A program made the position numbers and the translations under genes. Shown here in pieces: positions 31,355-38,678 of a stretch of DNA of 64,000 nt (its first letter is position 1; each line of letters begins with the position of its first letter). Below the pieces are notes generated by a model. The model had not been told where the DNA came from, did not search any database, and saw only the letters and a program-made list of their open reading frames with translations. This DNA comes from Lichtheimia corymbifera B2541 (taxonomy: Eukaryota; Mucoromycota; Mucoromycetes; Mucorales; Lichtheimiaceae), in contig JNEU01001090.1 of NCBI GenBank assembly GCA_000697475.1, positions 186,001-250,000 on the forward strand. The letters run 5' to 3'.

Positions 31355-34300
31355 CTATGGAATATGATCCGTATCTTCTGATGTGATGGTGACTGAGGGA
31401 AGAAGAGCAGGGGTACAAGGGGAGGAGGGTGTTGGTGTGCGATTATCATCATCCGAATCACTCTCTGACTCAAACATGTGCATCTCCTTGACCAAAATCT
31501 GGGTATATGTGTGGATCGAGGCTTCAAGTTCGTCCTTGCGTACAGGTTTACTCACATAGCCATTCATACCTAAGATACACATGAAAATGAGAATCACTGT
31601 AAAGAAAATGTTGTCAATCCTATTTACCTGCAGCAATGCATTTCTCGCGATCCCCAGGCATGACACAGGCTGTCATAGCAATAATATATGGGTGTAATGA
31701 AGAATCAGCCAAGCTTTTACGTATCGTTTCTGCCGCTTCAAGTCCATTCATTTCTGGCATCCAAATATCCATAAACACCAAATCAATGGGTTCGCCTTGT
31801 TTCCTAGAAGCTTCAATCTTGTCACATGCTTCCTTGCCGTTTTGTGCCACTTCAGGCTTGATGCCCAATCGTGATAGCATGCGAGCCACCACTTTTTGAT
31901 TCACCGGGTTATCATCCACAAGCAATGATCGTATATCACTTGCAATTTCAGATAAGAGCGGCACTGCAGAGCTGGTAGATGATTGGCTTGAAATGCTACT
32001 GGCAGTCGTATTGGATCGAGCACGACGTTTGATGCGAAGCGTGTTCTCAGTTGCTGCTGAAACATTGGATCCCGTTAATGGAACCGGGGCTGTTGTAGCA
32101 GTGTTTGAAGATTCAACTGAAGGTGATTCAACTGCCATTATTTCAGTATCATCCTTGTGCTCAAGCAAATCCAATAGCACAGCAAAGAGCTTGGAGTTTT
32201 TCCATGGCTTGACAATGACTCGTGTTATGCCAGTCGTATCAGCAGTAGGTGTAGTTACAGTAGTATCATCAAATGGATTACGACGCTCATCACGTGGTGA
32301 ATCAATCGCCAAGGATTTGGTAGGCAAGAGCATGGGCGCTGTAGTAGTGTAAGATGGTTCAACCTTATCACGTCGACGAGCATCGCTGACATAAAGCGCT
32401 GGGATGGATACAATGGATGGATTGCGTGTACGTAATGCATCAAGGACAATCTTGCTACTGGTTGCTTGGGTCTCATCAACAGCTGGGACTATCTCGTATT
32501 CCTCATCAATGATGATAACGTCAGGCCGATCGTGCTCTTGTAGCTTCTTCTCTGCATCAGCAAATGATAACGTCTCCACGCGTTGTATGGTTGTCTTTGT
32601 GAGGAGATTATACCAGCAGTGCTGTTGGCTGACAGAATCGGTAATAACCAAGCAATAAGAGCACAGCCGTGCAATATCATCAAATCGGTTTTGCATGGCG
32701 TAAGTAGGTGTCGAGCTTTGCTCCCGTAACAGGACTCGAAAATAAAAAGTGGATCCTTTGCCATATTCGGATTCGACCCACTAGAATAAAGGGAATAATG
32801 AGTTGATGATTGCCTTTGTAAGAGCTGTTGGTTTCTTACCATGTCACCGCCCATCATTCGACAAAGCCGTCGACTAATAGCAAGGCCAAGACCTACATGT
32901 ATCTTTGTCAGAAAGTGTTTAAAAAAGACAACCATGGCTACTGACCTGTGCCTCCATAATTACGTGTGGTGGAAGCATCGACTTGGGAAAATGTCTGGAA
33001 AAGTCCACTTGTTTTCTCGGGTCGGATTCCAACACCTGTATCTTTGACGGCCACTTGCAACGTCTCTATGCGTGTGGGGCTCACATCACTACTAGCACCA
33101 TCTGAAAACTGGCATCCTGGTTCCGAGTTCTCATTGTCGCTGCTTTCATACCAATAGGCATCAGAAGAATCAGGAGACTCGGCAAGTCGTTTCACGCAAA
33201 CGCAGACATGGCCTTCACTTGTGAATTTCAATGCGTTGGATAACCTTTGGAAAAGAACAAATAAGCATAATAGATCACTTTTCATCATGGCATGTATACT
33301 TACAGATTAAGCAAAACTTGACGTAAACGTACTACATCGCCGTAAACCGACGTCGCCACATCGCCTTCAATGGTATACCACAAGATAATCCCCTTATCCA
33401 AGAAATTGGGTGATACAAGCTTAAGGGCACTTTCCACAACATAAGTCTAAAATAGCGACGACATCAATAGCTGTTGTACGTAATCATTCTCTCATGCTTA
33501 CCAAGTCGAGACGGCGATGTTCCAAGCTAAGTTTGCCAGAATCAATCTTTGAGTAGTCAAGGATATCGTCAATAATGGCCATCAAATGATTGCCTAAAAT
33601 AATACATTGTTAGTGATGTAATCCATTTACCCTTCAACCTTCAATACCTGATGATTCAATGGTTTCAGCACAATCATGTAAATCAGCTGGCAAGTTGCTC
33701 TCCATCAAGATACGTGACATGCCAATCACAGCATTCATGGGCGTGCGGATTTCTAAAAACGATAGTAGCATGAGCACCATAACACGTACGCTTAGCACGA
33801 ATAAAAAAATTACCATGAGACATGTTGGCCAAAAAGTTTTGCTTTGACGCTGCTGCTGCTTCAGCTACCTCTTTTGCTTCCTTGAGATCTGCATAGAACG
33901 ACGTAAGCATGAATGCATCTTTTACATTATTTGAGGGTACTTGCCTTCAAGTAGGTTTTGAGTTCTTGCTTTTTCTTCCTCAAGTTCCAAGGTTCTCTGT
34001 TGCAGATTGGCCGTACGTTGCCGGACAAGATTTTCCATGTCGTTTGCATATTGCTCGAGCTATGTTCATTCATCAATCCCAATGTCAGATCATGTAAATC
34101 CCTTCATAGAGTAGTTGTCTTACCAAAGTAGCCAAATTATCCACCACATTGTTATTGGCACCTGTCAAATGGGGATCGATCGACTTTATCCGATTCTAGT
34201 AGCATCATCATATACAATCAGATAAAAGGGGAGGTATACATGGCACTTTCTCCCACTTACCCTTAGCATGGTCATGGATGGACGAGCAGCAGGATCACGT

Positions 34301-37300: not shown

Positions 37301-38678
37301 TTCTTATTACAGGAAAGCTTACCTCGCGTGATGATTGGATTTTCCAACCTAGCCTTCTGGCAAGCTCGGTCATGCCGGCAATGACGTTTGATTGATAAGT
37401 GTCACCTTGAACATCAGGAATCACAGTTCCAATGGTGGTGTTATTGCCACCAGGGGTTGACAAGAACCGTGATCCATCCTTGGAAGCAAGCGCTTCAACA
37501 TTCTCCTTGGTAATAAGCGTTGGCCCTGTTGGGATCGTCCTGTTGATATAGGCATCATATCCTGTGATAACCTTTCACCCCCCTTCTGTATTAGCACCTT
37601 GTAGAGAACATGGAATACCATGATGATACTTACTCGTAGATGCATAAGAAACACGGGTAATGCTGCTTGTATGTAAGGTAATTGCGAGATGCCATATACA
37701 TCGGGCCATGCTTGAAAAATCTCGGTCCGGTTTGTGCTTCCCAAATCAAAGAATCCGATACCAATACGCTTATCCTTTGGATCCAGCCCAAACATTGCCT
37801 CCGTCATCAGGTCGGTCGTTGGCTAATGAAGGTGAGGTTAAAAATAAAAGTTTTTCTTTCTTTCTTTTTCACTTACTGTGCCACCCATGGCAATGACCGA
37901 GTCGAATTCATTGGACTTTAAAGACTGTCTGATGGTATTGATGGCTTGTTGTTGATTGTCGTTTTTGTAAACGGTCATCATGGTAGGTGTTGCACCGAAT
38001 ACTGAAGTGATGCCTTGAACGCGATTATCAATGACAGGTTGATCGAGATCATTCTGGGATGAAATATGGATGCACAATGGCCGACTGTAATTTCGGTTGT
38101 GCAATGCACGCGCCAACATGTTCCCTGCTTCGACATCATCTTGCATCACACGTGTCAATCCGAGCTGTTGTGCATATTGGAGGCCTGAATTGAATACAAT
38201 CACTGGCACGTTTTTCGACATGGCATGTTCCACTGCTTGATAGACCGCCTCATCCGGGATGGTGACAATCAAGGCATCCACCTTCTATATTGTATGTGTG
38301 TGTGTAACCAATCCCTTGTCAGTTTTGTCTTGCGAGAAACCGATTTTTACATACCCGATCCACGGCATCAAGGATATCTTGAGCCATTGTTTCACCCGTG
38401 TTCACGATATGACGCTGCCATTCAATATCGACGTTGACAATAGCTGCTGCATCCCGTGCTGCTTGTTCTGGACTGTGAAAAAAAGTGGATAGGATCGAAT
38501 AGTGGGCAATCACTGCGAAACGTAGTTGATCTCTCATAGCGACCGGATTTAAATTCGTAGCATCGCCCGAAGGCTTGGTGCAATTGGGTATCCCGTTATT
38601 GGCATAGATATCAGCGGCATGCGAGATCGAGGTCAATAGTGAAGTGGTAAAGTACAATAGTGGTAGTACCCAGTGCAT
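31355..38678 (-). CDS. Receptor hybrid histidine kinase with PBP-like ectodomain and guanylyl-cyclase-receptor-like pseudokinase
   Basis: Model: complement(31355..31569, 31628..32780, 32840..32892, 32946..33244, 33304..33446, 33502..33593, 33648..33752, 33814..33888, 33945..34059, 34124..34195, 34261..34483, 34546..34900, 34966..35064, 35117..35277, 35343..36428, 36491..36594, 36662..37001, 37060..37262, 37323..37571, 37634..37822, 37877..38284, 38355..38678); 2,020 residues. Order: signal peptide (1-22); RbsB/LacI-like sugar-binding-protein region (about 45-345, [20 protein letters not shown]) and a second such region (about 345-600, [19 protein letters not shown]); Cys-rich module (about 646-715); membrane helix (about 737-757); Gln/Ser-rich linker; pseudokinase (about 960-1250) with FVKQI but HGCLTSQSC for HRDxxxxN and DYG for DFG; coiled coil (about 1270-1315, [20 protein letters not shown]); HisKA with phosphorylatable His at about 1334 ([13 protein letters not shown]); HATPase (NLLSNALKF, DTGVGI, GGTGLGLAI); receiver with Asp about 1901 ([11 protein letters not shown]) and Lys in SKPV. 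The intron at 33944 uses a GC donor. Domain identities are firm; ligand and target are unknown. Confidence 0.87.

Follow-up and report, generated by a model that had tools for sequence, protein, structure and literature searches.

The window analysed here is a 64,000-nucleotide stretch of Lichtheimia corymbifera B2541 (contig JNEU01001090.1, positions 186,001 to 250,000). It carries on its minus strand, at 38678..31355, a single gene whose product we read, with a probability of roughly 0.78, as a type I membrane receptor that is at the same time a hybrid histidine kinase, with a pseudokinase and a signalling helix as the relay. Judged by its sequence, the pseudokinase is of the kinase-homology type of receptor guanylyl cyclases (RGCs). 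A Pfam scan of the spliced protein, with absence called at a threshold of E 0.01, recovered all five domain types that an earlier note on this DNA had claimed, in the order Peripla_BP_4 (aa 57-304, 37643..38510, E-value 7.9e-23), PK_Tyr_Ser-Thr (3.5e-27), HisKA (aa 1310-1374, 33535..33844, 1.6e-20), HATPase_c (aa 1421-1568, 32727..33341, 3.3e-25) and Response_reg (aa 1836-1953, 31514..31925, 4.6e-26). All features of the gene are on the minus strand.

Gene model and family

Codon use and splice signals gave a first gene model, whose junctions were then corrected in frame by reading. The final model (31355..38678) is one open spliced frame of 2005 amino acids in 23 exons, one more than the 22 counted earlier, with introns of 45 to 70 bases that are GT-AG throughout except for one GC-AG intron. 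An annotated Lichtheimia hyalospora protein of 1993 amino acids (P0001) is the top database match, with 84% identity from end to end and residues 1-2002 aligned on 1-1990. In addition, a second gene of the same family with the same domain order was found in the same genome (L032 on contig C67, about 8959..2465, minus strand), and it was matched along its length at 27-58% identity by piece, with one short piece at 68%. As P0001 is colinear end to end and a second copy stands in the same genome, the gene is not an artefact of the model, and the earlier proposal of one gene at these positions holds. The model was drawn from genomic DNA, and an automatic model gave 25 exons with several different junctions, as might be expected if two adjacent genes had been fused by the splice model; however, colinear annotated proteins exist in L. 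hyalospora and other species, the paralogue is matched over its length, and all five Pfam domains occur together in 25 of 58 family rows, so that we regard a fusion artefact as very improbable. A split into separate genes was rejected on the open frame, the colinear homologues and the paralogue.

These 58 rows (P0001 to P0058, three of them without an organism name) come from a first homologue search with 66 hits; the other eight (P0059-P0066), four of which are nematode proteins with the cyclase domain PF00211, were excluded from family counts. In the precomputed Pfam lists, HisKA is present in 50/58 rows and Peripla_BP_4 in 35/58, and PF00211 is present in none. The eight rows lacking HisKA include partial entries, such as P0006, which ends inside the HisKA motif. 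The annotated models of P0039 and P0006 end at kinase or HisKA junctions, and these stops are probably missed splice sites. In a second search, whose query (P0044) ran into HisKA, 7993 top word-sharing candidates were scored and the best 120 listed; this list consists partly of histidine kinases without a pseudokinase and was used for extra family members only.

Named members belong to Lichtheimia, Circinella, Mucor, Absidia and Cunninghamella, and to Mortierella, Podila and Linnemannia. A taxonomy look-up places L. hyalospora in the Mucorales (Mucoromycota) and Podila verticillata in the Mortierellales (Mortierellomycota), and we take the other genera to belong to one or other of these orders. 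This is a family, not a singleton, and it is spread over two fungal phyla. No member from Dikarya, chytrids or Glomeromycotina was among the named matches listed (in the second search, the best 120 of 7993), a weak negative because the search needs shared five-letter words. Its members form a conserved receptor family of soil-dwelling fungi and opportunistic moulds, for which the question of the ligand is a tractable one.

Ectodomain, pseudokinase and signalling helix

The hydrophobic N terminus (aa 1-21, 38616..38678) is a probable signal peptide. The ectodomain matches Peripla_BP_4 and Peripla_BP_1, with no match to ANF_receptor (PF01094), and its Peripla_BP_4 region combines the profile match with a type I periplasmic binding protein (PBP) fold, as expected from the bacterial-type sugar-binding ectodomain previously described. 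This bacterial character rests on Pfam and the fold, because no close bacterial relative was found: a length-limited homologue search with the ectodomain returned four proteins from 3293 candidates, all named as fungal and none as bacterial. These proteins (P0154 to P0157) have a related Peripla_BP_4 ectodomain and Pfam lists with no kinase domain, and are either stand-alone binding proteins or cut gene models. A second PBP-like alpha/beta lobe seems to follow at about aa 340-625 (36371..37475), a region with no Pfam match in the whole-protein scan, judged by transferring, by eye, the strands and helices of residues 366-651 in the P0039 model. RGC ectodomains were not among the best 50 structure matches listed for the ectodomain model, which carries no weight as a sign of absence. 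The Cys-rich juxtamembrane stalk (about aa 645-715, 36101..36313) scored 14.9 bits against Ephrin_rec_like, below the cut-off of 23.1, and that domain is present in the precomputed Pfam lists of several homologues. Hydropathy over 19 residues gave one transmembrane helix, at aa 734-763 (35957..36046), in agreement with the single helix claimed earlier.

The pseudokinase (about aa 950-1235, 34187..35353) was compared by phmmer with the PDB, where among 1051 matched sequences NPR-A (150.2 bits) and GC-C (83.6) ranked first and CSK (59.5) next; a nematode RGC used as a control in the same search also had these two receptors at the top (179 and 132 bits), followed by a score of 64. In this search no other solved kinase came as close to the domain as those of RGCs, in agreement with the RGC likeness noted earlier. 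The own-genome kinase locus L029 was dropped before counting for want of a clean catalytic motif. In a phylogenetic tree, from which F_P0118 (an over-long extraction) was left out, the domains of 33 fungal and 6 animal rows formed one clade with support 100/99, within which the best tree placed the fungal clade (100/96) as sister to the animal clade (96/87). A placement with ordinary fungal kinases, named beforehand as the outcome that would count against RGC kinship, was not obtained, as the approximately unbiased (AU) test rejected a grouping of the domain with eight kinases encoded in its own genome (p 0.0066).

The window motif HGCLTSQSC has Gly for the Arg and Cys for the Asp of HRD, and Ser for the catalytic Asn. 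The degenerate catalytic loop reported earlier is thus present, but its Cys does not replace the catalytic Asn: Ser stands at that position and the conserved Cys is the residue directly after it. In a motif survey of 127 fungal rows (all family rows of both homologue searches, partial entries included), Gly at the HRD Arg position was found in 123 rows and Cys after the Asn position in 126, and each was found in all six RGCs. The HRD Asp and the DFG Asp do not occur together in any fungal row; Asp stands in the HRD place in 49/127, and in none of these 49 is the DFG Asp retained. As no row keeps both Asp residues, and as the window protein has HGC with DYG where Podila P0042 and P0044 have HGD with GYG, the kinase domains of the family are predicted to be inactive throughout, without one fixed set of changes. 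An active protein kinase was rejected on the catalytic residues.

An origin of the pseudokinase from an ordinary fungal or tyrosine kinase-like (TKL) kinase, with its RGC likeness acquired by convergence, was weighed against this evidence; group X hybrid histidine kinases, with their Ser/Thr-kinase-related domain, might offer a parallel, such a domain being known on some fungal histidine kinases (PMC4965123). Structure comparison by VIA-align tied RGCs with RAF, RIPK and BTK, so that the fold alone gives no separation, and an AU test of a grouping with MLKL gave p 0.106, which is not decisive. In a Foldseek search with the P0003 model, the GC-A kinase-homology domain came first among protein kinases in the best 50 matches listed. 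The rejected own-genome clade and the shared Gly and Cys argue against convergence, as does the continuation of the RGC match into the linker beyond the kinase fold, and we consider this origin improbable.

That continuation is a 36-residue segment (aa 1246-1281, 33985..34156) comprising an RGC-like linker and the signalling helix. It scored 83 against NPR-A, 61-70 against four nematode RGCs and 54 against GC-C, all six exceeding the highest score from 100 shuffles (no more than 44), compared with 24-46 against 19 histidine kinases without a pseudokinase (from the second homologue search, bacterial where named). The match to the RGC signalling helix reported in the earlier note is upheld by these scores as real and specific. 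Among the 19, only P0146 and P0151 to P0153 beat their own shuffles, and their match begins at LEQ, leaving the eleven preceding residues unmatched. The pattern shared with the RGC linker is D-x-(L/V/I)-x-x-x-(L/M). At the level of sequence, RGCs alone match the pre-helix segment, and the helix is shared by RGCs and histidine kinases; the signalling helix may therefore be the natural site of output exchange. The 2006 study in which the helix was named reports it ahead of histidine kinases, and places it after a kinase domain in no proteins other than animal receptor cyclases (PMC1592074). The family has both contexts at once, with the helix after a kinase domain and before a histidine kinase.

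Histidine kinase output and classification

The protein has the features of a hybrid histidine kinase, namely HisKA, HATPase_c and a C-terminal receiver with its catalytic residues. Across 35 rows, chosen because they carry the histidine-kinase module, 12 positions (phospho-His, Asn-box, G-boxes and receiver) are conserved in 35/35. With these residues intact, autophosphorylation and phosphotransfer would be predicted. The kinase module has 37.6-45.4% identity with 13 histidine kinases from the second homologue search, a best-hit set, and 35.2-39.0% with exon-piece frames at eight HisKA loci of its own genome; given how the two sets were made up, no conclusion is drawn from the difference. The genome also has two histidine phosphotransfer (HPt) loci. 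Between HATPase_c and Response_reg lies a receiver-like stretch (about aa 1590-1760, 32151..32663) with no Pfam match; strands alternate with helices there in the P0003 model, and it is a possible pseudo-receiver. Foldseek, searched with the entire cytosolic model, gave as its top match full-length ShkA (6qrj), which we take to have a pseudo-receiver at the same place.

In the proposed mechanism, the PBP domain and the probable second lobe would bind a small molecule outside the cell, most likely a carbohydrate or similar to judge from the fold, and the ligand would close the PBP lobe. The Cys-rich stalk and single helix would carry this change across the membrane, where the pseudokinase, acting within a dimer, would reset the signalling-helix coiled coil, by analogy with RGCs. 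Since the helix continues into the histidine kinase, the latter would switch between states, and autophosphorylation on His1319 would pass phosphate to Asp1888, to an HPt protein and on to response regulators.

The protein is not a member of the RGC family, and up to the helix it probably works like one. RGCs (NPR-A/GC-A, GC-C and nematode gcy proteins) likewise have an extracellular domain, one transmembrane helix, a kinase-homology domain with H-G-x-(L/I)-x-S-x-x-C, and the same linker pattern and signalling or dimerization helix after it; they differ in having ANF_receptor and PF00211 in place of Peripla_BP_4 and the HisKA, HATPase and receiver domains. Names of homologues such as Guanylate cyclase (P0039 among them) and RGC/RGC protein kinase would suggest that the protein is itself a guanylyl cyclase, but PF00211 is missing from every family row and from the window protein, so that the entries so named lack a cyclase domain. 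The three PF00211 loci found in the genome lie on other contigs, where they adjoin frames with leucine-rich repeats and PP2C-like frames of the same strand (read by eye), a layout we take to be that of a fungal adenylyl cyclase of the Cyr1 type. A true guanylyl cyclase was ruled out by domain content, and the chance that the database names are right is close to negligible. A 2022 survey states that no fungal guanylate cyclases have been described so far and reports the guanylate cyclase family as abundant in Glomeromycotina by transporter-database similarity (PMC8778642). These calls may reflect the kinase-like domain.

Among histidine kinases, the nearest parallels are partial. Group X hybrid histidine kinases also have a kinase-like domain N-terminal to the hybrid histidine kinase, in their case a Ser/Thr-kinase-related domain with a GAF domain between it and HisKA; the description of group X sets it apart from the present protein, which has an ectodomain, a transmembrane helix, an RGC-type kinase-like domain and no GAF match in Pfam. 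We take the Ser/Thr-kinase-related domain listed for fungal histidine kinases to mark group X. TorS/TorT and LuxQ/LuxP similarly feed PBP-type sensing into a hybrid histidine kinase, and the four top NCBIfam matches of P0001, none of which reaches its cut-off, include models of TorS, BarA and LuxQ; these systems differ in lacking a pseudokinase and in that TorT and LuxP, the PBP partners of TorS and LuxQ, are separate proteins. Sln1-type kinases of group VI are membrane hybrid histidine kinases with a signalling helix (PMC1592074), but in them two transmembrane helices flank an extracellular loop (PMC6944256) and there is no pseudokinase, compared with one transmembrane helix here. As far as tested, the protein fits neither fungal group VI nor group X. 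Linnemannia elongata, for which Mortierella elongata is presumably the older name, carries family member P0047. Unprecedented transmembrane hybrid histidine kinases have been reported in early-diverging fungi by a survey that included Mortierella elongata, and the passages of it consulted here name no RGC-like domain (PMC5285503). A review states that, with group VI as the exception, fungal histidine kinases are for the most part not predicted to sit at the cell surface, and it includes a Ser/Thr-kinase-related domain among their sensor domains (PMC4965123). A literature search of the titles and abstract starts listed and of passages, with subscription journals mostly outside it, found no description of this domain order, and as far as that search goes the receptor is an undescribed variant of hybrid histidine kinase.

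Origin of the cassette and neighbouring genes

The earlier note had a receptor module joined to a different output. This stands for the pseudokinase and helix, which are shared with RGCs, but not for transplantation of a whole receptor: only the pseudokinase-helix cassette is shared, because the ectodomain is Peripla_BP_4 and not ANF_receptor. As to direction, an output swap onto an animal-like receptor, a cyclase joined later in animals, or a transfer may each account for the arrangement: the best tree has sister clades, and nesting of the fungal sequences within animals is not rejected (p 0.27).

Horizontal transfer of the cassette from an animal into an ancestor of these fungi, in place of inheritance from the opisthokont ancestor, would leave the mechanism the same. 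It is consistent with the AU test, which does not reject nesting with NPR-A and GC-C (p 0.266), and with a patchy range in which the named fungal hits among the matches listed are only Mucorales and Mortierellales; the sister-clade topology speaks against it, as does the depth of a fungal clade that spans two phyla, and absence elsewhere is a weak argument from a word-limited search of which the best 120 of 7993 were listed. We therefore rate transfer as possible though unlikely. Put forward still more tentatively is the view that the RGC pseudokinase and helix are an old opisthokont relay cassette indifferent to its output, which was joined through its helix to a cyclase in animals and, in Mucorales and Mortierellales, to a histidine kinase; of the two, the histidine-kinase form may be older. 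If this is true, the hormone-receptor cyclases of animals arose by output exchange. With a cyclase as the sole output, it is difficult to examine how natriuretic-peptide-type receptors transmit a signal through their inactive kinase domain, and this natural chimera offers a test of whether the pseudokinase and helix can transduce on their own and of which joints may be exchanged.

Elsewhere in the window, a trehalase frame (40370..41062, minus strand) lies on the 5' side of the receptor gene, some 1.7 kb from its start, and a link between it and a sugar-binding receptor would be speculative. A match to the HET (heterokaryon incompatibility) domain at 21168..22214 (minus strand, 26.4 bits against a cut-off of 22.5) stands in a Mucorales-like genome. 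Finally, myosin head and chitin synthase frames follow in a row at 56332..61842 on the plus strand, arranged in what we take to be the order of myosin-chitin synthases.
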